Below the pieces are notes generated by a model, which was given only the letters and a program-made list of their open reading frames with translations, made no database searches and had not been told where the DNA came from. This document shows, one piece after another, positions 36,498 to 53,154 of a stretch of DNA of 64,000 bases; position 1 is the first letter of the stretch; each line of letters begins with the position of its first letter. Both the position numbers and the translations under genes were made by a program. The stretch is taken from NCBI RefSeq assembly GCF_000702305.1, contig NZ_JNLC01000012.1:310001-374000 (forward strand). Reading direction: 5' to 3'. The stretch is from Allobosea sp. 117. Its GTDB lineage: Bacteria; Pseudomonadota; Alphaproteobacteria; Rhizobiales; Xanthobacteraceae.

Positions 36498-36535
36498 ATT
36501 GTCTACAAAAGATCGACTTGAAGTCGTCAACAGTG
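36498..36535. promoter_or_regulatory. Operator-like boxes A, upstream of dapB-like gene
   Basis: Three related boxes, ATTGTCTACAA (36498-36508), ATCGAC (36512-36517) and GTCGTC in AAGTCGTCAACAGTG (36521-36535). The centres are 11 bases apart (about 36503.5, 36514.5, 36525.5), so they lie on one face of the helix. They match the GTCGAC-core boxes of the other promoters in this island. Confidence 0.55.
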
Positions 36536-36551
36536 AATCGGAGCGTTCGCC

Positions 36552-37361
36552 ATGGCCTTCCGCATCATTCTCGCAGGCGCCACCGGCCGGGTCGGCCGCG
36601 CGCTCACCGCCGCTATCGAGGAAGCACCTGACATGGATCTCGTCGCCGCCGTGTCCCGCAGCGGCGCCGGCAGGGATCTCGGCGAGGTGCTCGGCGGCGC
36701 GCCCAGCGGCGTGCCGGTGTTCTCCAGCGTCGCCGAGGCGCTCGCCGTCCCGGCCGACGTACTGATCGACTACACCGACCGCGAGGTGATCAAGGCGGCG
36801 ACGCTCGCCGCCATCGACGCCGGCATACACGTCGTCATCGGCACATCGGGTCTCACCGCGAAGGATTTCGACGAGATCGACGCGCTCGCACGCGCGAAGG
36901 GCGTCGGCGTGCTCGCCGGCGGCAATTTCGCGATCACCGCGGTCCTGCTCCGCCGCTTCGCGATCGAGGCGGCCAAATACATCGCCGATGTCGAGCTGAT
37001 CGAATATTGCCCGGCCGAGCGGCGGGACGCGCCTTCCGGCACTGCGCGCGAGCTGGCCGAGGAGCTCGCCGAGGTGCGCCAGCCGGCGACGAGCTGGCCG
37101 GTCGAGGAGATGGTCGGCGCCGTCGAGACGCGCGGCGGCGCCTTCGGCGAAGGGCGGACCGAGGTCCGCCTGCATGCGCTCCGGCTGCCGTCCTATCTGC
37201 TGGCGGTGGAAGCCGTGTTCGCCACGCATGACGAACGCCTGACCATCCGCCACGATGCCGGCTTTTCGCCCATGCCCTATGTCTCGGGCACGATGCTCGC
37301 CGCCCGCAAGGTGTCGGGCTGGACCGGCGTCAGGCGCGGCCTCGACTCGGTGATGGACTGA
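36552..37361 (+). CDS. DapB-like reductase lacking the catalytic His/Lys
   Basis: A 269-residue protein with the dihydrodipicolinate reductase fold: ILAGATGRVGRALTAAI (NAD(P) binding), LIDYTDREVI, VIGTSGLT and DAPSGTARELAEEL. In true DapB the active site reads E-x-HH-x-x-K-x-DAPSGTA. Here it is IEYCPAERRDAPSGTA, so both His (E. coli 159/160) are Cys/Pro and the Lys (163) is Arg. It therefore probably reduces a different substrate. The context is a GntR-controlled catabolic island, not lysine synthesis. Confidence 0.82.
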   Translation: MAFRIILAGATGRVGRALTAAIEEAPDMDLVAAVSRSGAGRDLGEVLGGAPSGVPVFSSVAEALAVPADVLIDYTDREVIKAATLAAIDAGIHVVIGTSGLTAKDFDEIDALARAKGVGVLAGGNFAITAVLLRRFAIEAAKYIADVELIEYCPAERRDAPSGTARELAEELAEVRQPATSWPVEEMVGAVETRGGAFGEGRTEVRLHALRLPSYLLAVEAVFATHDERLTIRHDAGFSPMPYVSGTMLAARKVSGWTGVRRGLDSVMD

Positions 37362-37365
37362 CGCC

Positions 37366-38604
37366 TCAGAACCGTTCGGGGCGGAACGGCGCGAGGTCGA
37401 CGGAGGGCTCGCGACCGGCGACCAGCTCGGCGACCAGCCGGCCGGTCGTCGCGCCGAGCGTCACGCCGATCTGCCCGTGGCCATAGGCCAGGAAGACATT
37501 GGCGTGGCGCGGCGCTCGCCCGATCGCCGGCAGGCCGTCCGGCAGGAACGGGCGCGGCCCCATCCAGAGCGTGCCGCCCGACAGGTCGAGCCCCGGCAGG
37601 ATGCCGGCCGCCTTCCGGGCCAGCATGTGGGCGCGCGAGAAATTGGGCGCCGGATCCGGCCCCGCCACCTCTATGGTGCCGGCGATGCGCAGGCCGGTCT
37701 CCATCGGCGTCAGCACGAAGCCGCCATTGGCGTAGAGCACGGGGCGGCCCAGCGCGACGCCCGGCGCGGGCACGTGATAATGGTAGCCCTGCAGCGCGGC
37801 GAGCGGCGCCTTCAGCCCGAGCTCGCCGAGCAGCGGCCGGCTCCAGGCACCCGCCGCGACGACGAGGCGGCGGACATCAATCCGTTCGCCCCCGGCGAGG
37901 TGCAGCGCCGCGACACGGTCGCCCGCGCTCTCGATGTGCCGTACCTCGGCGATACGGATGATGCCGCCGCGAGCCTGAAAGAAGGCCGCCAGCCGCCGTG
38001 CCATCAGGTGGGGATCGCTGAACTGGTGCCATCCCTTCAGCCGGGCACCGCAGGAGACCGGTCCGCCGAGCGCCGGCTCCAGCTCGCGCACCTCCTCGCC
38101 GGAGAGGAAGCTGTGCCGGAAGCCGAGCGCCTCGCGCAGCTCCCAGGTGAAGCGGTCCTTCTCGTAATCGGCACGGTCGTGGAAGACGATGAGGTTCTCG
38201 GCCGGAACGAGGTTGCCGGCGATCCCGGCGCGGTCGAGCAGCGCGCGGTAGTCGGCCTCGGCGTGGCGTGTCAGCGTGGCGAGGAAACCGGCCGCCTCGG
38301 TGACGCGTCGCCGGCTTCCCGTCGACAGGAAGCGCAGCAGCCACGGCAGTTCGCGCAGCAGCGCCCGCGGACGCACAAAGAGCGGCCCCTCGGGGTCGAG
38401 AAGCCAGCCCGGTATCTTGCGCGCCGTGCCCGGCTTGGCGAGCGGCACCACCTCGCCGACCGCCAGCAGGCCGCAATTGCCGAAGGTCGCCCCGCCACCC
38501 GGCTGGTCGCGCTCGATGATCTCGACCGAATGGCCGTCGTCCTGCAGGGCGAGCGCCGTGCACAGGCCGACGATGCCGCCGCCGATGATGGTGACGTCGC
38601 TCAT
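37366..38604 (-). CDS. DadA-like FAD-dependent amino-acid dehydrogenase/oxidase
   Basis: A 412-residue flavoenzyme of the DAO/DadA group. It starts with the FAD motif VTIIGGGIVGLCTALAL and EIIERDQPGGGATFGNCGLL, and ends with GPRPFLPDGLPAIGRAP and AYGHGQIGVTLG, typical of D-amino-acid or secondary-amine dehydrogenases. It oxidises an amine to an imine, passing electrons to O2 or the respiratory chain. It is cotranscribed with the tautomerase 25 bases upstream and converges with the dapB-like gene. Confidence 0.88.
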   Translation of the reverse strand: MSDVTIIGGGIVGLCTALALQDDGHSVEIIERDQPGGGATFGNCGLLAVGEVVPLAKPGTARKIPGWLLDPEGPLFVRPRALLRELPWLLRFLSTGSRRRVTEAAGFLATLTRHAEADYRALLDRAGIAGNLVPAENLIVFHDRADYEKDRFTWELREALGFRHSFLSGEEVRELEPALGGPVSCGARLKGWHQFSDPHLMARRLAAFFQARGGIIRIAEVRHIESAGDRVAALHLAGGERIDVRRLVVAAGAWSRPLLGELGLKAPLAALQGYHYHVPAPGVALGRPVLYANGGFVLTPMETGLRIAGTIEVAGPDPAPNFSRAHMLARKAAGILPGLDLSGGTLWMGPRPFLPDGLPAIGRAPRHANVFLAYGHGQIGVTLGATTGRLVAELVAGREPSVDLAPFRPERF

Positions 38605-38629
38605 CTGGGTTCTGCCGCTGGCAGCCTCG

Positions 38630-38833
38630 TCAGGAGGCCGGCGCCGCCGGCTTGGCGTCGGTCAGCACACCGCCGATCGCCCAGTCCTCGCGCTCGACCT
38701 CGGTGAAGACGATCTGCACGCTCGCGGGGGTGCACTTGGCGATGCGGGCCATTTCGCTGGTCAGGGACTCGGCGAGCTCCTGCTTCTGCTCGCGGGTGCG
38801 GCCTGTCAGCATTTCGACGCGGATGATGGGCAT
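38630..38833 (-). CDS. 4-oxalocrotonate tautomerase-family protein
   Basis: A 67-residue tautomerase. After Met removal the catalytic base Pro1 is exposed (MPIIRVEMLTGRT) and Arg11 lies in TGRT, both as in 4-OT; the later part contains EREDWAIGGVLTDAK. It interconverts keto and enol forms of a 2-oxoacid. ATG 38833 fixes Pro at position 1. It is transcribed with the DadA-like gene and starts opposite boxes B. Confidence 0.88.
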   Translation of the reverse strand: MPIIRVEMLTGRTREQKQELAESLTSEMARIAKCTPASVQIVFTEVEREDWAIGGVLTDAKPAAPAS

Positions 38834-38900
38834 ATCGGCTCCGGACCAGGGGCGGCGAGGAGGGACGGCACCGCTCATCGCCTTCTTCATTGTATAACCA

Positions 38901-38935
38901 ATGTCGACATGTGTAGATTGACCGTCGACATTGTC
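38901..38935. promoter_or_regulatory. Operator-like boxes B, divergent tautomerase/aroE-like promoters
   Basis: A perfect palindrome ATGTCGACAT at 38901-38910 and CGTCGACATTGTC at 38923-38935. The GTCGAC cores are 21 bases apart (two turns). The spacer serves both divergent genes. This matches the TGTnnACA pattern bound by FadR-type GntR regulators (inference). Confidence 0.6.
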
Positions 38936-38988
38936 AACGCGTGTTTCGCGTCCGTTCGGCGGAAGACCCGGCGCAGAGGTTGCTCCTG

Positions 38989-39798: not shown

Positions 39799-39800
39799 GC

Positions 39801-39816: not shown

Positions 39817-40592
39817 TGCGCGGCGGCCGCGCTGTAGCTCGTATAGACCAGCCAGCCGCAATCGATCGGCAGCGTCGCGCCGGTGATGGCGCCGGCCAGC
39901 GGCGAGGACAGGAAATAGATCGCCTCGGCGACTTCGTGGGGCTCGACGAAACGGCGCAGCGCCGAGCGTGCGATCACCGTGCTCGGGTCGCGCTCGCCGC
40001 GATCGATGCGCGCCTTCATCGCCGGCGTCAGCGTGTAGCCAGGCGCCACCGCATTGACCCGCACACCCTGCGGACCGAGTTCGGCGGCCATGATCTCGGT
40101 CAGCATCTTCACGCCGGCCTTGCTGACGCCATAGGCCGGCTGCGGCCAGGGGTGGAAGGTGGTGAGCGAGCAGAGGTTCACGATCGAGCCGCGCCCCGCC
40201 TCGACCATGCGGGTCGCGAAGGCGCGGCCGACCAGCAGCGTGCCGCGCACATTGATGTCGAGTATCCGGTCGAATTCCTCGATCGGCATCTTGGTCACCC
40301 GCACCGCGTTCTGCAGCACCCCGCCGGAATTCACCAGCGCCGCCACCGGGCCGTGATCGGTGCTCACCGTCGTGGCGAAGCGCTCGACCTCCTCCTCCGA
40401 GGACACGTCGAGGCGATGGAAATCGCAGCGCGTGCCGCCGGCCGCGATTTCCGCCGCCACCGCGCGGCCGCGCGTCTCGTCGATGTCGCCGATGACGACC
40501 GTCCAGCCGGCGGCGGCGAAGCGCTTTGCGGTGGCCTCGCCGATGCCGCTCGCCCCGCCGGTGATCACGACGACATTGCCGGAGGAGTTCAT
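39807..40592 (-). CDS. Short-chain dehydrogenase/reductase
   Basis: A 261-residue classical SDR: TGGASGIG near residue 11, GDID after the second strand (NAD preference), and active-site Ser/Tyr/Lys in NLCSLTTFH and YGVSKAGVK. The usual NNAG is NSGG here. It overlaps the upstream TIM-barrel gene stop by four bases (ATGA at 40589-40592), so it probably acts on the product of that enzyme. It belongs to the hydantoinase operon running leftward from 45289. Confidence 0.88.
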   Translation of the reverse strand: MNSSGNVVVITGGASGIGEATAKRFAAAGWTVVIGDIDETRGRAVAAEIAAGGTRCDFHRLDVSSEEEVERFATTVSTDHGPVAALVNSGGVLQNAVRVTKMPIEEFDRILDINVRGTLLVGRAFATRMVEAGRGSIVNLCSLTTFHPWPQPAYGVSKAGVKMLTEIMAAELGPQGVRVNAVAPGYTLTPAMKARIDRGERDPSTVIARSALRRFVEPHEVAEAIYFLSSPLAGAITGATLPIDCGWLVYTSYSAAAAQPA

Positions 40593-41443
40593 GCCTGATC
40601 CTTTGCTGTGTCGCCGAGCGCGCCGACATAGGGGGTGCAGCGCTCGATGCCGATCCGCACGGTCTCGTCGCCGGGGCGCGTCCACCAGTCGAGCTCGGAG
40701 AAGATTTCGAGCTCGAACACGCCGGAATAGCCGATCTCGTCGAGCCAACCGCGGATGCGAGCGATATCGGCAACGCCGTCGCCGACCATGCCGCGGTCGC
40801 GCAGGTTCCGGGTCGGCACCAGCCAGTCGCAATAGTGGAAGGTCAGTATGCGCTCGGGGCCGGCGCGGCGCAGCTCGCTCTCGAAGGCCGGGTCCCACCA
40901 GCAGTGATAGACGTCCGGCACCAGCCCGGCGGCATCGCCGAGCTCGTCGCACAAATCGTTGGCGACGGTTATCGAGTTCAGCACGCTGCGGTCGCCGGCA
41001 TACATCGGATGCAGCGGCTCGAGGCCGAGCTTCACGCCGACGCTGCGGGCATGTGGCGCCAGCGTGTGGAGGGCGTCGCGCACCCGCGCGCGCTGGCCGG
41101 CGATGTCCTTGGAGCCGGGCGGCAGTCCGCCGACCACCATGACCACGCAGGGCGCGCCAATGGCGGCGGCATTGTCGAGGATGCGCCGGTTCTGCTCGAT
41201 GGCGGCGTCGAAATCGGCTTCCGTCGCCGCGTTCAGCCAGGCGCTGGTGCAGAGCGAGGCGACCCACAGGCCGGCGTCGCGCAGATGCCGGGCGGTGCGC
41301 TCAACGCCATATTCGTCGAGGTAGCTGCGCCAGCAGGCGATGCCCCCGACGCCCTGCGCCGCATAGCCCTCGATCGCCTGCGCCATCGTCCAGTTCGGCG
41401 TGGTGATCTGGTTGATGGCGAAGCGGGCAAGATCCGGGCGCAT
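40589..41443 (-). CDS. TIM-barrel sugar isomerase/epimerase-family protein
   Basis: A 284-residue AP-endonuclease-2-like TIM barrel. The metal site pattern is seen: Glu in LGLEPLHP, then Asp/His in DVYHCWWDP and HYCDW, and Glu in FELEIFSE. The family includes hydroxypyruvate isomerase, IolE and dehydroshikimate dehydratase, so it acts on a hydroxylated keto or sugar-like compound. The start lies five bases before the hydantoinase B stop region; coupling with the following SDR is by ATGA overlap. Confidence 0.85.
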   Translation of the reverse strand: MRPDLARFAINQITTPNWTMAQAIEGYAAQGVGGIACWRSYLDEYGVERTARHLRDAGLWVASLCTSAWLNAATEADFDAAIEQNRRILDNAAAIGAPCVVMVVGGLPPGSKDIAGQRARVRDALHTLAPHARSVGVKLGLEPLHPMYAGDRSVLNSITVANDLCDELGDAAGLVPDVYHCWWDPAFESELRRAGPERILTFHYCDWLVPTRNLRDRGMVGDGVADIARIRGWLDEIGYSGVFELEIFSELDWWTRPGDETVRIGIERCTPYVGALGDTAKDQA

Positions 41444-41447: not shown

Positions 41448-43220
41448 TCACGCGCCCCCTGCGGCCGCGCGCCGGGCCTCGGTGGCTGCCTCGTCGATCA
41501 TCTCGCCGGCGAACACCACGCCGTAGTGCCGCTCGGCATAGGCGCGGGAGATCTTGCCCTCGTCGAGATCGGCGCGGATGCGCGAGATCGGCCGCAGCCT
41601 GGGATCGCCATAGCCGCCGCCGCCCGCCTGCTCGTGGCGGATCACGGTGCCGGCCCGGATGTTGCGCGTGATCTTGCTGTCGAGCTCTTCCGCGACGCCG
41701 TCCGCCGTCATCAGCACATTGCGCGACAGCGCCGCCGGCCCGCCGCCGAACAGACCGTAGGGCGGGTTCACATAGCGGTCGGAGCGAACCTGCAGCACCG
41801 CCTCGTCGGCGAGCAGCCGATATTGCCGCACCAGCCCGAGACCGCCGCGATATTCGCCCGGCCCGCAGGAATCCTCGCGCAGCGCATATTCCTCCATCAG
41901 CACCGGATAGCGGGCTTCCAGCGTCTCGATCGGCAGGTTCGACATGTTTTGCGAGGGGTTGGTCACGCCCTCTATGCCGTCCTGGTTGAAGCGCCCGCCC
42001 CAGGCGCCGTTGATCATGTCGACCAGCACGAAGGGCTCGCGCGAGCCCTTATGATAGCCGCCGAGCACCACCACGGTGTTGCCGCCTTCGCCCGCCGCCA
42101 TCACCTTGCGCGGCGCGATCTGGGCGAGCGCGCCCATCACCGTGTCGACGACGCGGTAGCCGGTGAGCGCGCGCGCGGCGACGGGGGCCGGCATCAGCGG
42201 GTTGAGGATCGAGCCTTCCGGCGCCGTCACGGTGATGCAGCGATAGACGCCGGCATTGTTCGGCACCTCGCTGTCGAGTGCACAGCGCACGGTCAGATAG
42301 GTCGAGGATTTGGTGAAGGAGAGCGTCGAGTTGATGGCGCCCCGCACCTGCGGCGAGGAGCCTTCGAAATCGACGTACAGATGGTTCCCGCGCACGCTGA
42401 CGCGGCATTTGATCGGGATCGGCTCGGGCGAGAAGCCGTCGCCGTCGATATAGTCGGTGAAATCGTAATCGCCGTCCGGCCAGGCGGCGATGGCGGCGCG
42501 GGTAAGCGCCTCGCCATAGTCGATCAGCTCGTCGAAATAGCGGTTCAGCTCCTCGGCGCCGTAGCGCTCCACCAGCTTGACGAACTCGCGCTCGCCGATG
42601 TTGCAGGTGGCGTATTGCGCCTCGATGTCGCCGATGACCAGCTCCGGCAGGCGCACATTCTTCTCGATGATCGTGAACAGCGTCTCGTTCGGCGCGCCGC
42701 GATCATAGAGCTTCATCGGCGCGATGCGGATGCCTTCCTGGAAGATCTCGGTCGAGTCGCTGGCATTCGAGCCCGGCACGCGGCCGCCGACATCGCAATG
42801 ATGCGCCACCACGACGGAGAAGCCCTGCAGCTCGCCGCCATGGAAGATCGGCTTGAACATGAAGATGTCCGGCAGGTGCATGCCGCCGTCATAGGGGTCG
42901 TTCAGCACCACCACGTCGCCGGGATGCAAATTGCCGGCGAAGCGCTTGATAACGACCTCCATCGCGTCCGGCACCGCGCCGAGATGGAGCGCCACGGTCT
43001 TCGCCTGCGAGAGGATGCGCCCCTGCCGGTCGCACATGGTGACCGAATAGTCGAGCACGTCGCGCACGATGGGCGAGCGGGCGGTGCGCATCACCGCATA
43101 GGCCATGTCGTCGACGATGGTGTCGAGGCCGCTCTTGATCACCGCGAAGGTGATGGGATCGATCCTGCGCTCCACCATGGTTGGCTCCCTGCCTGTCGCC
43201 TGCGCCGCGCCCGCATTCAT
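41448..43220 (-). CDS. hyuB: Hydantoinase B/oxoprolinase subunit
   Basis: A 590-residue HyuB-family protein: RIDPITFAVIKSGLDTIVDDM, DPYDGGMHLPD, VVVAHHCDVGGRVPG and the C-terminal GGGGYGDP. With HyuA it forms an ATP-dependent amidohydrolase that opens cyclic amides (hydantoin, 5-oxoproline) or, in relatives, carboxylates ketones. ATG 43220 overlaps the hyuA stop (ATGA). ATG 43178, with AGGGAG upstream and the common family start, is an alternative. Confidence 0.92.
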   Translation of the reverse strand: MNAGAAQATGREPTMVERRIDPITFAVIKSGLDTIVDDMAYAVMRTARSPIVRDVLDYSVTMCDRQGRILSQAKTVALHLGAVPDAMEVVIKRFAGNLHPGDVVVLNDPYDGGMHLPDIFMFKPIFHGGELQGFSVVVAHHCDVGGRVPGSNASDSTEIFQEGIRIAPMKLYDRGAPNETLFTIIEKNVRLPELVIGDIEAQYATCNIGEREFVKLVERYGAEELNRYFDELIDYGEALTRAAIAAWPDGDYDFTDYIDGDGFSPEPIPIKCRVSVRGNHLYVDFEGSSPQVRGAINSTLSFTKSSTYLTVRCALDSEVPNNAGVYRCITVTAPEGSILNPLMPAPVAARALTGYRVVDTVMGALAQIAPRKVMAAGEGGNTVVVLGGYHKGSREPFVLVDMINGAWGGRFNQDGIEGVTNPSQNMSNLPIETLEARYPVLMEEYALREDSCGPGEYRGGLGLVRQYRLLADEAVLQVRSDRYVNPPYGLFGGGPAALSRNVLMTADGVAEELDSKITRNIRAGTVIRHEQAGGGGYGDPRLRPISRIRADLDEGKISRAYAERHYGVVFAGEMIDEAATEARRAAAGGA

Positions 43221-45289
43221 AGCGTCACCACCACATTGCCGACGGGGTCGAGGCCGGCGCGCGCGCCGGGCGGCACGATGATGGTGGTGTCGGCGCTCTG
43301 CAGCACCACCGGCCCCTCAACCTCGCCACTCAGCGCCGCCCGCTCGATCACCGGCGTGTCGACCCAGCCGGTGTCGCGGCTGAAATAGATCGGTCGACGG
43401 CCGACGACCGCCTCGCCCGGCGCGAGCTGGCCCGCCTCGATATGCGCGAAGTCGAGATTCTGCGCGCTGATGCCGCGTGCGCGCAACCGCACATTGACGA
43501 TCTCGACATCGTCGCGCGAGGCATAGCCATAGATGCCGCGATAGCTCTCCAGGAACGCCTCGCGCAGCGCGCCGGCATCGAAGCCATCGGCCCCCAGCGG
43601 CACGGCGAGCTCGGAATCCTGGCCGCGGAAGCGCAGGTCGAGCTCGAATTCGAAGGCGATGCGGTCTTCCGGATAGCCCTCGCGGGCGAGAGCCGCGACT
43701 GCGTCGGTGCGCAGGTCGGCGACGACCTTCCCGATTTCCGGGGCCTCGACCTTGCGCAGCAGCGTCGGGAAGGCGCGCAGGAAATAGTGCTCCACGCTGC
43801 CGGCCAGCATGCCCATCGCGGTGAACACGCCCGGCGCGCGCGGGAACAGCACGCGGCCGATGCCGAGCGAACGGGCGAGGTCGCAGGCATGCACCGGGCC
43901 GGAGCCGCCGAAGGCGAGCAACGTGAAGTCGCGCGGATCGACGCCGCGCTCGACCGTCACCGCGCGGATGGCGCGGGCCATGTTGACGTTGACGATCTCG
44001 CGTATGCCGGTCGCCGCCGCCTCAACGGTGAGGCCGAGCGGGCCGGCAACGTCGCGCTCCACCGCGTCGCGCGCCTTGGCGACGTCGAGCGTGAGCGTGC
44101 CGCCGGCAAGCTCGGCGGGCAGGAAGCCGAGCACGACATTGGCGTCGGTCACCGTCGGGCTGGTGCCGCCGGCTCCGTAGCAGGCCGGCCCCGGCTTGGC
44201 GCCGGCGGAGACCGGGCCGACATTCAAAAGCTTGCCGGGATCGAGCCAGGCGATGGAGCCGGCGCCGCTGCCGACCTCGGCGACGTCGATGGTCGGCACC
44301 CGCATCAGATAGCCGCCGGCCTTGATGAAGCGGCTCGGCGTCGAGATGCCGGCGCGGAACTCGTATTCGTTGGTGCGGGTCAGCTTGCCGTCATGGATCA
44401 GCGAGGCGGAGGCGGTGGTGCCGCCCATGTCGAAGACGATGAGGTTGCGCTCGTCGATCGCGGTGCCGAGCCGCCCCGCGCCAACGACCCCGGCCGCGCG
44501 GCCGGACGAGATGAAGAAGACCGGTTTCTCCTGGGCGATGGCGGCGGCGGAGAGACCGCCATTGGAATTGCTCACCAGCAGCGGCGCGGCAACCCCGATG
44601 TCTCGCAGGCCTGTTTCCAGCCGCTCGATATAGCTGCGCAGCGCCGGCAGCACATAGGCGTTCACCGCCGTGGTGGAGGTGCGCTCATATTCGCGGATCT
44701 CCGGCAGCACGGCGACCGAGGCGGTCACCCACAGCTCGGGGAACGCCTCGCTCAGCGCCCGCGCCGCCTCGGCCTCGTTTTCACCGTTGCTGTAGGAGTT
44801 GAGGAAGCAGATGGCGACCGACTCTATGCCCTCGCGCACGAAGTCGCGGCCGATCTCCAGCACCTGATCAATGTCGACCGTCTTCAGGATTTCACCGCCG
44901 GCGGTGGTGCGCTCGTCGACCTCGCGACGGTAGCGCCGGGCCACCAGCGGCTCGGGCTTGGTCCAGGACAGGTCGAACATGGTGGGGGTGCGCACGCGAC
45001 CGATCTCCAGCACGTCGCGGAAGCCGCGCGTGGTGATCAGGCCGGTCCTGGCGCCAGCCTTCTGCAGCAGAGTGTTCGAGCCGACGGTGGTGCCATGCAG
45101 CACCTCGACCACCTGCCCGACACCGAGCCCGGCGGTCTCCAGGATCTGGGCCACACCGGTCAGCACGGCCTGTTCCGGATGGTCCGGCGTGGACGCGACC
45201 TTGGCGAAGAACGCCCGGCCCTCGCTGTCGAGCAGGACGAGGTCGGTGAAGGTGCCGCCGATGTCCACGCCAATCCGCGCTTGCCTCAT
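43217..45289 (-). CDS. hyuA: Hydantoinase A/oxoprolinase subunit
   Basis: A 690-residue HyuA-family ATPase: GVDIGGTFTDLVLLDSEGR at the start, LHGTTVGSNTLLQ, MFDLSWTKPEPLV, FDMGGTTASASLI (second phosphate loop) and ERGVDPRDFTLLAFGGSGP. It couples ATP hydrolysis to ring opening or carboxylation. First gene of a five-gene leftward operon (hyuA-hyuB-TIM barrel-SDR), with boxes C just upstream. The substrate is likely a cyclic amide or lactam, but acetophenone-carboxylase-like chemistry cannot be excluded. Confidence 0.92.
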   Translation of the reverse strand: MRQARIGVDIGGTFTDLVLLDSEGRAFFAKVASTPDHPEQAVLTGVAQILETAGLGVGQVVEVLHGTTVGSNTLLQKAGARTGLITTRGFRDVLEIGRVRTPTMFDLSWTKPEPLVARRYRREVDERTTAGGEILKTVDIDQVLEIGRDFVREGIESVAICFLNSYSNGENEAEAARALSEAFPELWVTASVAVLPEIREYERTSTTAVNAYVLPALRSYIERLETGLRDIGVAAPLLVSNSNGGLSAAAIAQEKPVFFISSGRAAGVVGAGRLGTAIDERNLIVFDMGGTTASASLIHDGKLTRTNEYEFRAGISTPSRFIKAGGYLMRVPTIDVAEVGSGAGSIAWLDPGKLLNVGPVSAGAKPGPACYGAGGTSPTVTDANVVLGFLPAELAGGTLTLDVAKARDAVERDVAGPLGLTVEAAATGIREIVNVNMARAIRAVTVERGVDPRDFTLLAFGGSGPVHACDLARSLGIGRVLFPRAPGVFTAMGMLAGSVEHYFLRAFPTLLRKVEAPEIGKVVADLRTDAVAALAREGYPEDRIAFEFELDLRFRGQDSELAVPLGADGFDAGALREAFLESYRGIYGYASRDDVEIVNVRLRARGISAQNLDFAHIEAGQLAPGEAVVGRRPIYFSRDTGWVDTPVIERAALSGEVEGPVVLQSADTTIIVPPGARAGLDPVGNVVVTL

Positions 45290-45338
45290 CCGTCTCTCCG
45301 CAGGCCGGCTCCCCTACGGGAGAGCCTTGAAAAATCTC

Positions 45339-45361
45339 AGTCGACTTTCTGTCGACAATGT
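45339..45361. promoter_or_regulatory. Operator-like boxes C, upstream of hyuA
   Basis: AGTCGACT at 45339-45346 and TGTCGACAATGT at 45350-45361. The two GTCGAC cores are exactly 11 bases apart. It lies 50 to 70 bases before the hyuA start. Same sequence family as boxes A, B, D and E. Confidence 0.6.
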
Positions 45362-45454: not shown

Positions 45455-47182
45455 TCAGAACGGCCGGCGCAGGGGGGTCGAGGTGTCGCTGCCGCCGACC
45501 AGGAAGTCGAAGTCGAGCCCCTGGTCCGCCTGCAGCACATGCTCGATGAACAGCCGCTCATAGCCGCGCCGCGCCGCGGCCGGAATCGGTCCCGGCTCGC
45601 CCTTCCGGCGTTCCAGCTCCTCGGGCGCGACGTTGAGATCGAGCGTTCCGGCGTCCACATCCAGCGTGATCAGATCGCCGTCGCGTACCAGAGCGAGCGG
45701 CCCGCCGATGGAGGATTCGGGCGTGACGTGCAGCACGACCGTGCCATAGGCGGTGCCGCTCATACGGCCGTCGGAGATGCGCACCATGTCGGTGATGCCC
45801 CGCTCCAGCAGCTTCGCCGGCAGGCGGATATTGCCGAGCTCCGGCATGCCGGGATAGCCGCGCGGCCCGATGCCCTTCAGCACGAGGACGCTGTTCTCGT
45901 CGACGGGAAGGTTAGGATCGTCGATCCGCGCGTCGAGATCCTCGACCGTCTCGAAAACCACGGCCGGCCCGGTGTGCTTCATCAGATGCGGGCTGGCCGC
46001 CGAGGGCTTGATGATGGCGCCGCGCGGGGCGAGGTTGCCGCGCAGGATCTTCAGCGCGTTCTGCGGCTTCACCGGCGCGTCGAAGGAGGCGATCACCTCG
46101 GGATTGCCGTTGCGCGCGCTGGCGATGTCCTCGCCGAGCGTCCGTCCGGTGACGGTCAGCGCATCGAGATGCAGCCGGTCGCCCATCTCCGCCATCAGCG
46201 CCGGCAGGCCGCCGGCGGCGAAGAACTCCTCGACGAGATAGGCGCCGTTCGGCGCGATGTTCGCCAGCAGTGGGATGCCGGCAGAATTGGCCTCGAAATC
46301 CGCCAGCGACAAGTCGATGCCGAGCCGGCCGGCAAGCGCGGTGATGTGGAGGATGGCGTTGGTGCTGCCGCCGAGCGCGGCGTTGACGCGGATGGCGTTC
46401 TCGATGGCGCGCCGGTCGACCACCTTCGTGATGGTGAGGTCCTCGCGCACCATCTCGACGATGCGCCGGCCGGCGAGCTGCGAACTCGACAGGCGTCGGC
46501 TGTCGACGGCAGGGATCGCTGCGGTGCCCGGCAGGCTGAGGCCCAGCGCCTCGGCGAGGCATCCCATGGTGGTGGCGGTGCCCATGGTGTTGCAGTGGCC
46601 GTTGGAGCGCGACATGCCGTACTCGGCGTCGAGGAAATCGTCCTTCGACATCCGCCCGGCCCGGTAGTCGGCGTGCATCTTGAAGATATCGGTGCCCGAG
46701 CCGACCGTGCGGTTGCCGAAGCGACCGCTGATCATCGCCCCGCCATGGACGACCACGGTCGGCAGCATCACGCTGGCGGCGCCCATCATATAGGCGGGAG
46801 CGGTGTTGTCGCAGCCGGTGAGCAGCACCACGCCGTCGAGCGGATTGGCCCGCAGCGTCGCCTCGAGCTCCATGCTCATGAGGTTGCGGAACAGCATGCC
46901 GCTCGGCCGCACGATGGAATCGCCGATCGACATGGTGGGGAAGATCAGCGGATAGCCGCCCGCCTCGAGCACCCCTTTCGCCACCCATTCGGCGATGCCG
47001 GACAGATGCGCGTTGCAGGGCACGAGGTCGGAGCCGGAATTGGCGATGCCGATCACCGGCCGCCCCTCGAACATCTCCGGCAGGGCGCCGCGCGCCTTCA
47101 GATGGGTACGGTGCTCAAATCCGGCATTGTTGATCAGCCGGAACCAGGCTTCGCTTCGCAGCGGACGCTTCTCGGATGGCAT
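45455..47182 (-). CDS. IlvD/Edd-family dehydratase
   Basis: A 575-residue iron-sulfur dehydratase of the dihydroxyacid/sugar-acid type. The cluster cysteines are C56 (SDLVPCNAHL), C124 (LTGCDNTAPA) and C197 (SNGHCNTMGTA). GHCNTMGTA and GCDN, not GCDK, fit sugar-acid dehydratases (arabinonate/xylonate group) better than valine-pathway IlvD. It removes water from a vicinal diol acid to give a 2-keto-3-deoxy product. ATG 47182. It follows the ABC genes on the same strand, 70 bases downstream. Confidence 0.9.
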   Translation of the reverse strand: MPSEKRPLRSEAWFRLINNAGFEHRTHLKARGALPEMFEGRPVIGIANSGSDLVPCNAHLSGIAEWVAKGVLEAGGYPLIFPTMSIGDSIVRPSGMLFRNLMSMELEATLRANPLDGVVLLTGCDNTAPAYMMGAASVMLPTVVVHGGAMISGRFGNRTVGSGTDIFKMHADYRAGRMSKDDFLDAEYGMSRSNGHCNTMGTATTMGCLAEALGLSLPGTAAIPAVDSRRLSSSQLAGRRIVEMVREDLTITKVVDRRAIENAIRVNAALGGSTNAILHITALAGRLGIDLSLADFEANSAGIPLLANIAPNGAYLVEEFFAAGGLPALMAEMGDRLHLDALTVTGRTLGEDIASARNGNPEVIASFDAPVKPQNALKILRGNLAPRGAIIKPSAASPHLMKHTGPAVVFETVEDLDARIDDPNLPVDENSVLVLKGIGPRGYPGMPELGNIRLPAKLLERGITDMVRISDGRMSGTAYGTVVLHVTPESSIGGPLALVRDGDLITLDVDAGTLDLNVAPEELERRKGEPGPIPAAARRGYERLFIEHVLQADQGLDFDFLVGGSDTSTPLRRPF

Positions 47183-47252: not shown

Positions 47253-47921
47253 TCAGCTCTGGACCCGAGCGCGGATGCGCAGCTCGACGCTGGAAACCAC
47301 CCAACTGAAGCCATAGCCGATGACGAAATAGATCAGCGCCACCGCGGTCAGGATCTCGATCGGCCGGGCGGTGATGTTGGAGATCGACTGCGCCGTGTAC
47401 ATCAGCTCGACCATGCCGACCGCGGAGACCAGCGTGCTCTCCTTGAACAGGCTGATGACGTTCGAGAGGATGTTCGGAATGGCGCGGATGAGCGCCTGCG
47501 GAGCGATGACGTAGAAGGTGCGCGTCGCCGGCGCGAGGCCGAGGGCGTTGCAGGCGTCGTACTGGTCCTGCCCGATCGACTTCAGCGACGAGCGGAAGGA
47601 CTCGCTGGTGATGGCGCCCATATAGAGCGTCAGCGCGATGATCGACGACCAGAACGCGTTGATCTCCACGCCGAGGATGATCGGCAGGCAGAAGAACACC
47701 CAGAACAGCGTGATGAGGGTGGGCGCGCCGCGCAGCACCTCGACATAGAGCGCCGCCGCCCAGCGCACCGCCCGGAACCGGGACTGCTGGCACAGCGCGA
47801 TGAAGAAGCCCAGCACCGTGCCCGCCAGCGAGCAGATGCCGCTGAGCAGGAGGCTCATCATCAGCCCCCAGGCGAGCGCGTCGCGGAACTTCCAGACCAC
47901 GGAGAAATCGAGATTGTCCAT
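47253..47921 (-). CDS. Polar amino-acid ABC transporter permease 1
   Basis: A 222-residue permease with five or six helices and the HisM/GlnP-type EAA loop DACNALGLAPATRTFYVIAPQ. It spans the inner membrane and pairs with the second permease, the ATPase and the family-3 binding protein upstream. Starts three bases after the stop of the previous permease. The paired permease arrangement is typical of polar amino acid uptake. Confidence 0.92.
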   Translation of the reverse strand: MDNLDFSVVWKFRDALAWGLMMSLLLSGICSLAGTVLGFFIALCQQSRFRAVRWAAALYVEVLRGAPTLITLFWVFFCLPIILGVEINAFWSSIIALTLYMGAITSESFRSSLKSIGQDQYDACNALGLAPATRTFYVIAPQALIRAIPNILSNVISLFKESTLVSAVGMVELMYTAQSISNITARPIEILTAVALIYFVIGYGFSWVVSSVELRIRARVQS

Positions 47922-47924
47922 CGC

Positions 47925-48593
47925 TCACGCCTTCAGCGCACGATCGCTTCTCGCCTCGATGAAGGCGGCGAGGCGCCCGATCGGTATCGAGACGGCGAGA
48001 TAGAACAGCACGAGGAAGGTGTAGGTCTCGATCGGCCGATAGGTCGATGTCGAGATCAGGCGGCCGTTGTACATGAGCTCATCGACGCCGACCAACGCGA
48101 CCAGCGAGGTCTGCTGGAACAGGCCGATGCCGTTGGTGATCAGCACCGGGATCGCGTAGCGCAGCGCCTGGGGCATGATGACATAGGCGGTCCGCTCGAA
48201 CGGCGTCAGGCCGAGCGCCACCGCCGCGTCGACATGGGCGCGCGGAATGGTCTGGATCGCGGCGCGGAAGGCCTCGGCGTTGAAGGCGCTGAGATTCATG
48301 CCGAGGATGACGACGCCCATGAAGATCGGCGACCAGAACACGTCGAACAGGATCGGCACGCAGAAGAAGAACCACACGATCTGCACGAGCGCCGGCGTGC
48401 AGCGGAAGAACTCGATATAGAGCTTCGCCGGCGCGCTGAGCAGGCGGTAGGGACCGGTGGTGCATAGCGCCAACAGCGCGCCGCCGATCAGCCCCGCCAC
48501 ATTGGCCCAGAAGGTGAGGTAGAGCGTGACCCACAACCCTTTGAGGAACAGCGGCCACGCCTGGATGATGAAGAAGTAGTCGAGATTCTGCAT
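47925..48593 (-). CDS. Polar amino-acid ABC transporter permease 2
   Basis: A 222-residue HisQ/GlnP-type permease with EAA loop DAAVALGLTPFERTAYVIMPQ and helices around GLWVTLYLTFWANVAGLIGG. ATG 48593 overlaps the ATPase stop by one base, giving tight coupling. The frame is open further upstream, but the chosen start gives a normal length. Together with permease 1 it forms the transmembrane channel. Confidence 0.92.
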   Translation of the reverse strand: MQNLDYFFIIQAWPLFLKGLWVTLYLTFWANVAGLIGGALLALCTTGPYRLLSAPAKLYIEFFRCTPALVQIVWFFFCVPILFDVFWSPIFMGVVILGMNLSAFNAEAFRAAIQTIPRAHVDAAVALGLTPFERTAYVIMPQALRYAIPVLITNGIGLFQQTSLVALVGVDELMYNGRLISTSTYRPIETYTFLVLFYLAVSIPIGRLAAFIEARSDRALKA

Positions 48594-49366
48594 CACGCCG
48601 GCTCGGCATTGGCGTGCAGGACGTTGTTGATGAAGTCGCGCGCCCGCTGGCTGGTGGGCCGGGCGAAGAACTCCTCCGGCGGGGCGTCCTCGGCGATGGT
48701 GCCGCCGGCGCAAAACACCACGCGCGTGGCGATGCGCCGGGCGAACCACATGTCGTGGGTGACGATCATCATCGGCATGCCACCATCGGCGAGCTCGATG
48801 ATCATCGCGATGACCTCCGAGACGAGCTCGGGATCGAGCGCCGAGGTCACCTCGTCGAACAGCATCAGCTTGGGATCGAGCATCAAAGCGCGGGCAATGG
48901 CGACGCGCTGCTTCTGGCCGCCCGACAGCTCGGAGGGATAGGCGGTGAGCTTCTGGTCGAGCCCGAACCGCCGCATGATCTCGCGCGCGCGGTCCTCGGC
49001 GACGCTGCGCGGCACGCCGCGCGAGCGCACCGGTGCCAGCGTCAGGTTCTTCAGCACGTTCAGGTGCGGGAAGAGCGTGTAGCTCTGGAACACCATCCCG
49101 ATCTGCTTCTGGATGCGGCGGTCGATGCGGGTGGCGCCATTGTCGGCGCCGATATAGGGCTCGCCATTGATGTCGATGGCGCCGGCCGCGATGTTCTCCA
49201 GCCCCATGATGCAGCGCAGGAGCGTGCTCTTGCCGCCGCCGCTCGGACCGATGACGACCAGGCGGTCCTTCGAGGTCATGGTGAGATCAAGCCCGTTCAG
49301 GACCTTGATCACCCCCATCGCGTAGCTTTTCTCGAGACCTCGAATCTTCAGGAAGTGGTCTGCCAT
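48593..49366 (-). CDS. Polar amino-acid ABC transporter ATPase
   Basis: A 257-residue HisP/GlnQ-type ATPase. Walker A is GPSGGGKSTLLR, Q-loop MVFQSYTLFPH, signature LSGGQKQRVAIARAL, Walker B LMLFDEVTSALDPE, and H-loop MIIVTHD-like MMIVTHDMWFAR. It energises uptake through the two permeases. ATG 49366. Stops one base into the permease start. Confidence 0.93.
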   Translation of the reverse strand: MADHFLKIRGLEKSYAMGVIKVLNGLDLTMTSKDRLVVIGPSGGGKSTLLRCIMGLENIAAGAIDINGEPYIGADNGATRIDRRIQKQIGMVFQSYTLFPHLNVLKNLTLAPVRSRGVPRSVAEDRAREIMRRFGLDQKLTAYPSELSGGQKQRVAIARALMLDPKLMLFDEVTSALDPELVSEVIAMIIELADGGMPMMIVTHDMWFARRIATRVVFCAGGTIAEDAPPEEFFARPTSQRARDFINNVLHANAEPA

Positions 49367-49443
49367 TGAGCGTCCCCAAACGAACGGCTGGAGCACCGTC
49401 ATGCCGCTCCAGCCGTCGCATCGTTGCAAGATCGAGGACCAGC

Positions 49444-50265
49444 CTACTTCGACGCGCCGATGATCTTGGCAACATATGCGTTGAAGAGATCCGCCGTCTG
49501 GCCGGTGGCCGCCTTCTCCTCGATGAAGATGTTGAGGGCGTCGATGTCGGCGGCGCTGGCGGTGCGGCGCAGGCCGAAGGCGATGCCCTGCTTGGCGACG
49601 GCCGGCGTCGGGAACAAGGCCACCCAGCGGTTCGGCGCGGTAGCGACGAACAGCGCGTTGGCATCGCTGTCCTCGACCACGATGTCGGCGCGGCGGGAGG
49701 TGACCGCCAGGCGGTTCGCGTCGACGTCGGCGAGACGCATGATGGTGGCGTTCTTGAGGTTCGCGGTCATCGCCGCGTCCTCCGCGCTGCCGGTCTTCAC
49801 CACGAAGGTGGTGCCGGAAACGTCGAGATCGGCCAGCGACTTCGGATCCTTGATCTTCGGATTGGCCTTATCGTAGACGAGCGAGATCTGGTACGCCCAC
49901 ACCGGCGCGCTGAAGGCGATCGCCAGCGCGCGCTTGGGCGTGCGGTTCAGGGCCAGCGAGAGGTCCCAGCGGCCGGCCTGCAGGCCCGCCACCATCTGGT
50001 CCCAGGTGGTGTCGACCATCTCGGCCTTCACGCCGAGCACCTTCTCGGCAAACTCGTTGCAGAAGTCGACGAACAGCCCGCTATAGGTGCCGGTCGAGGG
50101 ATCGCGCATCACATGCGGCGGTGCGAGGGCGACGCCGCAACGCAGCGCGCCGCGCTTCTGCACCTCCTGCCAATAGCCCTCGGCGGTCTGCGCGCGGGCC
50201 GCGGGCGCCGTCATCGCGACGCCGACCACGCCCAGCGCGGCAAGGATAAGCCTGCTCCAGTTCAT
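49444..50265 (-). CDS. Family-3 extracellular solute-binding protein
   Basis: A 273-residue periplasmic binding protein with a signal peptide (ending APAARAQ). GALRCGVALAPPHVMRDPSTG and YSGLFVDFCNEFAEKVLG, then VWAYQISLVYDKANPKIK and VVKTGSAEDAAM fit family 3 (polar amino acids, opines and related compounds). AGGGGAA precedes ATG 50265. It is the first gene of the ABC-dehydratase operon; boxes D lie 44 to 70 bases upstream. Confidence 0.9.
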   Translation of the reverse strand: MNWSRLILAALGVVGVAMTAPAARAQTAEGYWQEVQKRGALRCGVALAPPHVMRDPSTGTYSGLFVDFCNEFAEKVLGVKAEMVDTTWDQMVAGLQAGRWDLSLALNRTPKRALAIAFSAPVWAYQISLVYDKANPKIKDPKSLADLDVSGTTFVVKTGSAEDAAMTANLKNATIMRLADVDANRLAVTSRRADIVVEDSDANALFVATAPNRWVALFPTPAVAKQGIAFGLRRTASAADIDALNIFIEEKAATGQTADLFNAYVAKIIGASK

Positions 50266-50308
50266 GAAATTCCCCTGCTCTCTGGTTTTGGAATTTGTTT
50301 CAGACAGA

Positions 50309-50333
50309 ATGTCGACCAAATGGCGACAATGTC
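50309..50333. promoter_or_regulatory. Operator-like boxes D, upstream of the ABC operon
   Basis: ATGTCGACC at 50309-50317 and TGGCGACAATGTC at 50321-50333. The GTCGAC/GGCGAC cores are 11 bases apart. Lies before the binding-protein gene and after the GMC gene stop. It belongs to the same box family as A-C and E. Confidence 0.55.
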
Positions 50334-50434
50334 AAGCGAAGGTCGGACCGGGTTGCTTCCATTTTGAGCACGCCAACTGCGATGGCAGACCTGCCTACGC
50401 GTTGAGCACCGTGGCGGCGGAGGTCCACCGGTAC

Positions 50435-52060
50435 TCAGGAGGGCAGAGGGACGTCCGCCGGAGTCAGCAACGGCCTGCCCCGGACGATGTCCGAGGCCAT
50501 CTCCGCGATCATGATCGTGGTGGCATTGGTGTTGGCGTTGGTGATGAACGGCATCACCGAGGCGTCGATCACGCGCAGGCCCTCGATCCCGTGCACCTTG
50601 AGCGTCGGATCGACGACACTGTCCGCGCCCTGCCCCATCCGGCACGTGCTGGTGGGATGGAAGTCGTTCACCCCGGCGCGCGTGATGTAGGCGTCGAGTT
50701 CCGCCTTCGAGGCGAACGAATGCGGCGGGTCGGCCGGTCCGTCGAGCAGCCCGGCGAAGGCGCGCTGGCGTGCCACCTCATGGCCGATGCGGATGCTCTC
50801 GCGCATGCGGCGCCGGTCGCCGTCCGTATTCATGAAGTTGCTGAGGATGCGCGGCGGGTCCGCCGGATTGGCCGAGCGGAGCTTCACCCACCCGGTGCTC
50901 TCGACCCGCGTCGGGCCGATGCAGAAGGTCAGCCCGTGGTTCTTCATGTCGATGCCGTTGTCGTGGTCGAAGATCAGCGGCAGCGCCTGGACCTCGATGT
51001 CGGGATAGCCGGGATCGATCTCGCTGCGCAGCAGCGCCATGGCTTCGAGATTGCTGGTGGCGAGCGGACCGGAGCGGCGCAGCGCCCAGTCGACACCGGC
51101 CAGCGCCGCCCGGTGCCAGGCCACATATTTGATGGCGGAGACGGGCTGGCTGGAGACGAACTTCATGTAGACGCAGGCATGGTCCTGCAGGTTCTGTCCC
51201 ACCGCCGGCAGGTCCATCGCGACGTCGATGCCGATCTCCTCCAGATGCGCCGCTGGCCCGAGGCCGGAGAGCATCATCAACTGCGGCGAGCCGAAGCTGC
51301 CGGCGCAGAGCAGCACCTCCCGCGCGGCGCGGACCTGCTCGCGCTGGCTCCCGCGGCTGTAGGACAGGCCGACCGCCCGGCCCTTCTCGAGCACAATGCG
51401 CTCCACCATCGCGCCGGTCAGCACCGCGAGATTGCGGCGGCTGGCCGCCGGCTTCAGATAGGCGCGCGCCGTCGAGGAGCGGATGCCGCCGGCGCAGTTC
51501 GACTGGAAGCCGCCGAAGCCCTCGGGCTGCGCGCCGTTGAGGTCGTCCGAGAACGCGTAGCCCGCCTGCTTTCCGGCCTCGAAGAAGGCCTCGTGCAACG
51601 GGCTGAAGCTGTAGGTGCCGCCCTTGACGAGGATCGGCCCGCTGCCGCCGCGATAGGCGTCCTCGCCGCCTTCCCACGTCTCCATGCGCTTGAAATAGGG
51701 CAGCACCTGCCGGTACGACCAGCCGGCCGCGCCGGCCGCCACCCAGCGCTCGAAGTCGTGCGCGTTGCCACGGATGAAGCCGAGACCGTTGATCGAGGAC
51801 GAGCCGCCGAGCACCTTGCCGCGCGGCTGGTACATGCGCCGGCCGCCGAGCCCGGGCTCCGGCTCGCCGGTGAAGCACCAGTTGTATTTCGGATGCTTGA
51901 AGGTGAAGTCGTAGCCGGCGGGCATGCGTATGCCCCAGTAATTGTCCTTCGGCCCGGCCTCGACCAGCAGGACGCGGGTGTCGGGATCCTCGGACAACCG
52001 CGCGGCCAGCACGCAGCCCGCCGAGCCGGCGCCGACGATCACATAGTCATACGCGCGCAT
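50435..52060 (-). CDS. GMC-family (choline dehydrogenase-like) oxidoreductase
   Basis: A 541-residue FAD enzyme. The N-terminus DYVIVGAGSAGCVLAARLSE binds FAD; GKVLGGSSSINGLGFIRGN and the catalytic region NDFHPTSTCRMG with NANTNATTIMIAE are GMC hallmarks. It oxidises an alcohol to an aldehyde or ketone. ATG 52060, 61 bases after the SDR stop, with which it probably forms an operon from the box E promoter. The exact alcohol is unknown. Confidence 0.92.
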   Translation of the reverse strand: MRAYDYVIVGAGSAGCVLAARLSEDPDTRVLLVEAGPKDNYWGIRMPAGYDFTFKHPKYNWCFTGEPEPGLGGRRMYQPRGKVLGGSSSINGLGFIRGNAHDFERWVAAGAAGWSYRQVLPYFKRMETWEGGEDAYRGGSGPILVKGGTYSFSPLHEAFFEAGKQAGYAFSDDLNGAQPEGFGGFQSNCAGGIRSSTARAYLKPAASRRNLAVLTGAMVERIVLEKGRAVGLSYSRGSQREQVRAAREVLLCAGSFGSPQLMMLSGLGPAAHLEEIGIDVAMDLPAVGQNLQDHACVYMKFVSSQPVSAIKYVAWHRAALAGVDWALRRSGPLATSNLEAMALLRSEIDPGYPDIEVQALPLIFDHDNGIDMKNHGLTFCIGPTRVESTGWVKLRSANPADPPRILSNFMNTDGDRRRMRESIRIGHEVARQRAFAGLLDGPADPPHSFASKAELDAYITRAGVNDFHPTSTCRMGQGADSVVDPTLKVHGIEGLRVIDASVMPFITNANTNATTIMIAEMASDIVRGRPLLTPADVPLPS

Positions 52061-52121
52061 GCCGACCCCTCCCGTCGCGAGACCGGGCGGCGCCTTTCAA
52101 AACGGCGCCGCGAGGCCCGCT

Positions 52122-52892
52122 TCACACCGTGGCGGTGATCCCGCCGTCCACGTAGATGATCTGCCCGTTGACGAAGCTCGACGCTTCCGAGGCGAGGAAG
52201 ATGCTGGCGCCGACGAGCTCGTCGGGCCGCCCCCAGCGCCGCGCCGGCGTGCGCGCACCGACCCAGGCCGAGAAAGCGGCGTCCTCCATCAGCGGCCGGT
52301 TGAGGTCGGTCTGCATATAGCCGGGGCCGATGGCGTTGATCTGCAGCCCGTGCTGCGCCCATTCCGCCGCCATGGCCCGCGTCAGCATGGCGATGCCCGC
52401 CTTGGTCACCGCATAGGGACCGACGGTCGGGCGCGCGAGGCCGCTGGTGAGCGAGCCCATATTGATGATCTTGCCGCCCTTGCCGCGCGCCATCATCCGT
52501 TCGGCGGCAAGCCGCCCGATGAGGAACGGCGCGGTGAGGTTGACGTCAATGATCCAGGACCACTCCTCCGGCGTCACATCGACCATCGGCGCGCGGCGGA
52601 CCACGCCGGCATTGTTCACCAGGATGTCGATGTCGATCCCTTGCGCGTCGAAGCGCGCGAAGGCGTCGGCCACGGCCTCGCGATCGGTCACGTCGAAGGG
52701 CGCGGGGATCACCTCGACACCGGCGGCCGAAAGCGTCTGCACCGCCGCGTCCACATTGCCGGTATCGACGCCGTTGACGATGACGCGGGCGCCTGCCGCC
52801 CCGAGGCCGCGCGCGATGGCGAGGCCGAGCCCGCGAGACGAGCCCGTCACCAGTGCGGTCTTGCCGGACAGATCGAACAGCGCCAGTGACAC
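52122..52892 (-). CDS. Short-chain dehydrogenase/reductase
   Basis: A 256-residue classical SDR: TGSSRGLG near residue 17, NNAGVV, and active site Ser/Tyr/Lys in NMGSLTSGLA and YAVTKAGIA. GTG 52892 gives the normal family start (SLALFDLSGKTALVTG); the frame upstream is open but extends into the promoter boxes. First gene of the SDR-GMC operon, divergent from gntR. The similar SDR at 39807 suggests two alcohol/ketone steps in the pathway. Confidence 0.85.
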   Translation of the reverse strand: MSLALFDLSGKTALVTGSSRGLGLAIARGLGAAGARVIVNGVDTGNVDAAVQTLSAAGVEVIPAPFDVTDREAVADAFARFDAQGIDIDILVNNAGVVRRAPMVDVTPEEWSWIIDVNLTAPFLIGRLAAERMMARGKGGKIINMGSLTSGLARPTVGPYAVTKAGIAMLTRAMAAEWAQHGLQINAIGPGYMQTDLNRPLMEDAAFSAWVGARTPARRWGRPDELVGASIFLASEASSFVNGQIIYVDGGITATV

Positions 52893-52965
52893 GAACGCGA
52901 ACCCCGCTTCCCCGGACCAGCCGTCACGACGCGCAGGCGCGTCGGCGAATGGCCGACAGACTGTC

Positions 52966-53013
52966 ATGTCGACATTTAGACGACAAGACGTTAGTTTGAC
53001 CGTCGTCAATGTC
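52966..53013. promoter_or_regulatory. Operator-like boxes E, between SDR and gntR
   Basis: The palindrome ATGTCGACAT (52966-52975), a related GACGAC at 52979-52984 (centre 11 bases on), and CGTCGTCAATGTC at 53001-53013. The region 52893-53307 contains no gene; it is the divergent control region of the SDR-GMC operon and gntR. Confidence 0.6.
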
Positions 53014-53112
53014 GGATGGCGGGCGCCGGACCAGCTTCGCGGAGCACTCGACCCGCCGCACGCAACCATTTGGGGAGACACGACCTTCGCGCGAGGCACG
53101 AGCGTATACGGA

Positions 53113-53154
53113 CGATACGGCAGCCTATATGGTGCCCGTATCGAGTCGACATTG
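53113..53154. promoter_or_regulatory. Inverted repeat and single box F before gntR
   Basis: CGATACGG (53113-53120) is an exact inverse of CCGTATCG (53136-53143), 15 bases apart. Directly after it is GTCGACATTG (53145-53154), like the second half of boxes B. They lie 150 to 200 bases before the gntR start and could be an operator or an RNA hairpin in its leader. Confidence 0.5.

Follow-up and report, generated by a model that had tools for sequence, protein, structure and literature searches.

Which protein reads the GTCGAC-centred boxes that recur in the promoters of a catabolic gene cluster, and how are these boxes built? The question is raised by a 64,000-nucleotide stretch of Allobosea sp. 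117 (contig NZ_JNLC01000012.1, positions 310,001 to 374,000; hereafter the window), with a GC content of 69%, in which the cluster spans 36.4–54.1 kb and includes gntR, the gene at 53308 for a GntR-family regulator. Boxes A to E are probably operators of this FCD-type protein, a relative of HypR, the regulator of hydroxyproline catabolism; it would control the surrounding catabolic genes through a composite operator and repress them by occlusion. What carries this reading lies in the sequence: the boxes themselves, their conservation with the regulator, an 11-bp register and overlap with a −35-like element. Binding, repression, cooperativity and the ligand of the proposed switch are what we infer.

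Boxes in the cluster promoters

The original prediction had placed six boxes in this region, with coordinates that hold to within 1–2 bases:

Box A, 36499..36530: three units at 11-bp steps, TTGTCTACAA at 36499 (without GTCGAC), AGATCGACTT at 36510 and AAGTCGTCAA at 36521; before the dapB-like gene
Box B, 38890..38931: half-box TTGTA at 38890, full unit ATGTCGACAT at 38901 and CCGTCGACAT at 38922; between the tautomerase and FAD dehydrogenase genes (minus strand) and the AroE-like gene (plus strand)
Box C, 45338..45358: CAGTCGACTT at 45338 and CTGTCGACAA at 45349, 11 bp apart; before hyuA (minus strand)
Box D, 50309..50329: ATGTCGACCA at 50309 and ATGGCGACAA at 50320, 11 bp apart; before the substrate-binding protein gene (minus strand)
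Box E, 52966..52986: ATGTCGACAT at 52966 and TAGACGACAA at 52977, 11 bp apart; before the SDR gene (minus strand)
Box F, 53143..53152: a single weak GAGTCGACAT; before gntR, role doubtful

Most centres had been described as 11, 21 or 22 bases apart. The 11-bp step recurs, and the 21-bp pair of box B is the exception; the half-box TTGTA of B, newly noticed, lies 11 bp upstream of its first full unit and has more mismatches. Box F is present before gntR as proposed, and adds little.

Seven perfect GTCGAC cores had been counted in about 1 kb of promoter DNA, and we find seven in 1,092 bp, the total of five promoter regions (E and F share one). Dinucleotide shuffles gave a mean of 0.68, and none of 2,000 reached seven. 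Likewise, six decamers matched WTGTCGACAW in at least 9 of 10 positions, against a null mean of 0.16 and again none of 2,000 shuffles. The core is not equally dense elsewhere in the window: on a rough gene call with starts set by hand, it occurs 6.41 times per kb in the cluster promoters, 0.94 in coding DNA and 0.48 in other non-coding DNA, so that the promoters are about 7-fold and 13-fold richer, respectively. An expectation of one GTCGAC per 3 kb by chance proved too low, as the whole window holds 62 (51 of them in coding DNA) and its shuffle mean is 29.8.

Every strong box (A–E) precedes a cluster gene or a putative operon, the operons being drawn from gene order. The cluster genes are as follows:

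36552..37361, plus strand: DapB-like reductase
37366..38604, minus strand: FAD-dependent D-amino-acid dehydrogenase-like (DadA-like) protein, 38% identical to the FAD oxidoreductase of locus L083
38630..38833, minus strand: tautomerase-family protein, 56–60% identical to annotated tautomerases of L079 and L081
38989..39798, plus strand: AroE-like dehydrogenase
40589..41443, minus strand: xylose-isomerase-like TIM-barrel protein (TIM)
41448..43220, minus strand: hyuB, hydantoinase B/oxoprolinase family; relatives carry the same annotation
43217..45289, minus strand: hyuA, hydantoinase A/oxoprolinase family; relatives carry the same annotation
45455..47182, minus strand: IlvD-type dehydratase, start set by us
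47253..50265, minus strand: ABC importer (two permeases, ATPase, substrate-binding protein), 53–62% identical to L083 counterparts
50435..52060, minus strand: GMC oxidoreductase
52122..52889, minus strand: SDR oxidoreductase
53308..54057, plus strand: gntR, GntR/FCD regulator (Pfam GntR and FCD), the proposed repressor

The 53308 protein scores 61.5 bits for Pfam GntR and 63.4 bits for FCD, both over the cut-off, which places it in the FadR subfamily. Palindromes with GT and AC 2–3 nt apart define the FadR-type site in the part of PMC4494728 consulted, and the box core GT-CG-AC, with its 2-nt spacing, fits that definition, which makes it a candidate site for the protein. Aligned with the solved Thermotoga protein 3fms, the FCD residues N144 and H148 of the regulator fall opposite a D and an H, so that its ligand may be metal-bound.

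A probable composite operator

The architecture was examined in 44 hand-chosen regulatory regions of this and related loci. They contain 55 decamers matching WTGTCGACAW in at least 9 of 10 positions, of which 12 were dropped as near-copies or as coming from the same genome, leaving 43 boxes. The pattern that emerged pairs one full WTGTCGACAW with the far half of another copy at exactly 11 bp, giving the composite consensus TTGTCGACATtnnRnCGACAA. The far half (CGACA downstream or TGTCG upstream) was found with at most one mismatch beside 34 of the 43 boxes, against a shuffle mean of 1.4 (standard deviation 1.2), and was exact in 19; box B, whose partner half lies upstream at 38890, is outside the 34. 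No exact partner half stood at 10 or 12 bp, and minor exact peaks at 27 bp (5) and 29 bp (6) arise from tandem operators. As a control, 131 decamers of the same loci outside the chosen regions yielded a single 11-bp partner and no exact one.

Merging mutual pairs reduced the 34 to 31 operators, in which the full unit is nearly invariant. The partner keeps its outer GACA in 30, 31, 31 and 20 of them, a figure that must be read knowing that at most one mismatch in the outer half was allowed by construction; for its inner TGTC the figures are 8, 16, 12 and 29. Usually, then, only one of the two units is complete as a palindrome, the second retaining mainly its outer half. The likeliest explanation of the 11-bp register would be cooperative binding of two in-phase dimers. 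Most likely, one dimer would grip the full, even-spaced palindrome; a second would sit one turn further along the same face of the helix, anchored through the outer half of its unit and by contact with its neighbour.

Alternatively, a single dimer or tetramer could read the whole element as one long palindrome, TGTCG-N9-CGACA, and the retention of both outer halves in nearly all 31 merged operators is what such a site would give. We consider this unlikely: the inner half of the full unit (29, 31, 31 and 28 of 31) is as conserved as its outer half, while that of the partner is not, and a plain split palindrome would need no conserved inner half. This conserved half disfavours the simple split palindrome.

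The boxes also bear a fixed relation to promoter elements. In 10 of the 43, TTGACA (six) or TTGACT (four) abuts a unit, and the two units occupy the next 17 bp, followed by ACATTA, ACAATA, ACATAA, ACTAAT or ACATAT, or by ACATTC in box D. These ten include box D, with the element given below, and transporter promoters of the hyu-type and hyp-type loci described in later sections.

50330..50335, minus strand: predicted −35-like TTGACA abutting box D

Because the pair abuts the TTGACA-like element and fills the spacer, repression by promoter occlusion is suggested, and blocking of RNA polymerase is the simplest reading of the overlap. The promoter itself, through its 17-bp spacer and −10 region, might instead dictate the register with no second dimer involved, since in those ten boxes the pair fills exactly 17 bp and its outer half enters the −10 region. 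That account is quite unlikely: the half-box has a CG that is foreign to −10 elements, and 24 of the 34 partnered boxes lack an abutting TTGACA-like element (the two units of box D counted apart).

With two dimers on a composite operator, then, a bound repressor would exclude RNA polymerase at the transporter promoters, where the pair occupies the 17 bp after the TTGACA-like element, and would be released by a substrate or intermediate of imino-acid-like nature. The predicted regulon takes in the ABC importer, FAD dehydrogenase, tautomerase, AroE-like protein and hyuA-hyuB-TIM, together with the local SDR, GMC, IlvD and DapB-like genes. Most likely, the paired box would let one nearby repressor switch the whole cluster on and off.

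Some promoters hold further arrangements of these units. At L081:15567-15598 and L088:15594-15625, three units at 11-bp steps form a near-symmetric 32-bp element, a full palindrome with outer half-like sequence on either side. The hyp-type promoters at L083:9847-9896 and L107:1348-1397 each contain two full-plus-half operators, 29 bp apart.

Boxes and regulator in other genomes

Searches for relatives of the regulator covered 121 related genomes, 33 of which matched at E ≤ 1e-20, and 385 genomes from the class, 22 of which matched at E ≤ 1e-38, both counts including the own genome; they also covered named genomes, which gave 11 loci, and plasmids, of which 110 records matched at E ≤ 1e-40 (60 of the 110 listed). 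A protein search returned 2,820 homologues, the best among the 120 listed being 90% and 79% identical; these proteins were left out of the genome-context comparisons. No close orthologue was seen in 29 other genomes of the same genus (best among the matches listed, 35% identity), a gap that may reflect acquisition of the cluster.

Ten loci encode a regulator 53–68% identical to that of the window, and all ten hold at least one near-perfect box in regions chosen by hand. Each also carries hyuA, hyuB and TIM, nine an AroE-like gene and eight a tautomerase; relatives of DapB and IlvD were found in none. Nine of the ten, L037, L038, L039, L048, L079, L080, L081, L088 and L089 (regulator 56–68% identical), are termed hyu-type. 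L088 and L089 had been so labelled before their gene content was checked, and the gene-content test then confirmed the labels. In the tenth, L082, on a Paracoccus plasmid, the regulator lies between hyp-like genes and genes that include the AroE-like gene and hyuAB-TIM.

A second GntR-family protein of the window, of the MocR type, is encoded at 34979 and adjoins box A, so the boxes might be its own. This is very improbable: a MocR relative is missing from nine of the ten loci that keep boxes, the single match being weak (30%, L038), and MocR sites are direct repeats in the part of PMC4494728 consulted. Its absence from nine of the ten disfavours MocR as the binder.

Among the earlier loci, 15 of 23 homologues with at least 45% identity have the full-plus-half arrangement upstream of gntR, as against 1 of 54 below 45%. 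Of nine gntR upstream regions fetched later, eight carry it, all alphaproteobacterial (L104, L106–L112), with shuffle probabilities of 0.007–0.021 each; in the ninth, betaproteobacterial L105, it was not found. The decamer threshold here was 8 of 10, looser than the 9 of 10 of the main count. The nine were taken from the 110 plasmid records (60 listed), are related to loci already used, and include two (L104 and L105) seen before the rule was set. We regard these promoters as support, not independent proof.

In the 4.64-Mb own assembly, WTGTCGACAWNNNNNCGACAW, a pattern drawn partly from boxes D and E, matches 14 places (17 rows) with at most two mismatches, and a reversed control pattern gives one row. 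Boxes A, B, D and E make up 4 of the 14 and fall within about 0.4% of the assembly; E is the only exact match, and C was recovered with a related pattern. Of the ten places outside the cluster, L092 and L093 were briefly examined and no link to it was seen. Exact matches to the composite pattern elsewhere number four in 384 other genomes of the class and one in 120 other relatives. Four of these five foreign 3-kb loci had no match to any cluster protein; with one of five near a gntR homologue, the exact-pattern scan of other genomes is a weak regulon finder.

A core common in a GC-rich genome could recur by chance, and the window's 62 copies, double the shuffle mean, lend this some colour; as an explanation it is scarcely credible and is rejected on promoter density and register, with conservation beside the regulator also against it.

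Several observations weigh against assigning the boxes to the 53308 protein. The arrangement is absent upstream of gntR in 8 of the 23 close homologues, including the two nearest, both L037 copies; the boxes of L037 stand before genes other than its two regulator copies. In L085, one of the 15 successes, the match falls outside the annotated intergenic stretch, and neither betaproteobacterial locus, L085 or L105, has a clear box. Only one of the five foreign exact matches lies near a gntR homologue (113 bp away). Nine of the 43 boxes have no partner at 11 bp even with one mismatch, and the 44 regions were selected partly after matches had been seen. Autoregulation through box F is doubtful.

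Most box-bearing homologues have SRSP in the recognition-helix stretch, but so do the box-less L050 and L058, and L055 and L056, which carry a decamer, have SRTP; an association of SRSP with the box is a tendency only. At L037:10001-11478, two adjoining regulator gene copies are 68% and 62% identical to the window regulator.

Relation to known regulons

How new is this regulon? That a local GntR/FCD regulon exists, as originally proposed, is well supported, since the boxes follow the regulator across genomes. The claim that it is new holds in part. The decamer is the even-spaced FadR-type site of HypR and PrpR: the part of PMC4494728 consulted lists both among regulators with 2-nt spacing (GT-N2-AC), and that of PMC9765439 reports the palindrome ATTGTCGACAAT for PrpR of Pseudomonas aeruginosa, with electrophoretic mobility shift assays on purified PrpR.

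Novelty is further tempered by the company the regulator keeps. In a tree of 72 regulators, none of them an experimentally named HypR, the 11 hyu-type rows (the window among them) group in one clade (98/92), and six alphaproteobacterial hyp-type rows, joined by L082, form another (98/94); both sit within a larger clade of 31 rows (98/94). The hyp-type label comes from L083–L087, L090 and L091, whose regulators are about 48–50% identical to that of the window. Near most of them are genes annotated as dihydrodipicolinate-synthase-like, aldehyde dehydrogenase, proline racemase and amino-acid ABC transporter (only part of these in L091), and one L085 gene is annotated 4-hydroxyproline epimerase. 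From that annotation, the part of PMC5343134 consulted and general background, we infer that these are hydroxyproline (hyp) clusters.

The likeness to them is considerable. The Sinorhizobium HypR regulon, which serves hydroxyproline catabolism, likewise has genes for an amino-acid ABC importer and an FAD oxidoreductase next to that of an FCD-type GntR repressor (PMC5343134, as far as consulted, and general background), and GTCGAC-type boxes with an 11-bp partner precede importer genes of L083, L084, L086, L087 and L090. Given the identity of the window importer (53–62%) and FAD dehydrogenase (38%) to their L083 counterparts, the imported substrate may resemble hydroxyproline. The window regulator nevertheless belongs to a separate clade, at 48% identity to the hyp-type regulators. 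Moreover, hyuA, hyuB and TIM were found in none of six hyp-type loci tested, and the identified cluster genes of the window include no dihydrodipicolinate-synthase-like (DapA-like) deaminase, aldehyde dehydrogenase, proline racemase or epimerase. Filing the regulator as HypR is rejected on its separate clade and on gene content. By its sequence the regulator is HypR-like, not HypR, and the predicted switch is of a known type.

At L082:13818-14000, in Paracoccus ferrooxidans, one hyp-clade regulator stands between hyp-like genes and genes including hyuAB-TIM, a layout that hints at a link between the two pathways.

Other described regulators are more distant. PrpR is likewise an FCD-type GntR repressor with a palindromic site, but it governs the 2-methylcitrate operon, a single palindrome upstream of prpR being mentioned in the part of PMC9765439 consulted; no prp gene is among the identified cluster genes of the window. 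HypR of Streptomyces coelicolor is an FCD repressor of hydroxyproline genes whose motif, CTNTGC(A/C)ATGTCAC in the part of PMC6608401 consulted, is not the GTCGAC palindrome. HypR regulons have been reconstructed and taxon-specific HypR motifs noted in PMC5343134, which, in the part consulted, credits hydroxyproline as the inducer in S. meliloti to White et al. 2012. The S. meliloti HypR motif may already be in RegPrecise.

Half-sites beside GntR palindromes also have a precedent, as PMC4494728 mentions, in the part consulted, that 13 FadR-subfamily groups (170 transcription factors, 450 sites) have weaker half-boxes at 7–12 nt from the centre of the site, with data not shown there. Groups and registers are not given in that part, whereas here one clade has one register with a place in the promoter. 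The published ‘additional half-sites’ thus become something defined: 11 bp, outer half, promoter spacer. A literature search, which left out White et al. 2012, found no paper on this gene combination or on phased GntR operator pairs. Within the literature searched, three things seem not to have been described before: the gene cluster, the regulator clade and the exact operator register. The predicted whole is a local regulon, of a known kind, that is conserved along with its HypR-like regulator.

A bolder reading, tentative and to our minds rather less than an even prospect, is that the window and Rhizobium and Sinorhizobium plasmids share a mobile, undescribed regulon for a cyclic imino acid or lactam akin to hydroxyproline. 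It would have split from the HypR regulon and kept the composite operator, which pairs a full palindrome with a phased half-site fitted to the 17-bp spacer and would recruit two dimers asymmetrically. The importer, FAD dehydrogenase and ATP-dependent ring opening by HyuAB would handle the substrate. Operators predicted to the base give the cluster a testable regulon, and the likeness of importer and regulator to those of hydroxyproline-type clusters narrows the search for its substrate.

Two further gene groups lie beside the cluster. Downstream of gntR, at 54556-63377, are an ANTAR response regulator, two NMT1-like binding proteins and a nitrite/sulphite reductase-like protein, which probably serve nitrate/nitrite assimilation and are unrelated to the boxes. 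On the minus strand at 29287-34147, glycosyltransferase, AIR-synthase-like, radical-SAM and carbon-nitrogen hydrolase genes stand side by side, a group that we take to resemble the conserved nitrilase (Nit1) gene cluster.

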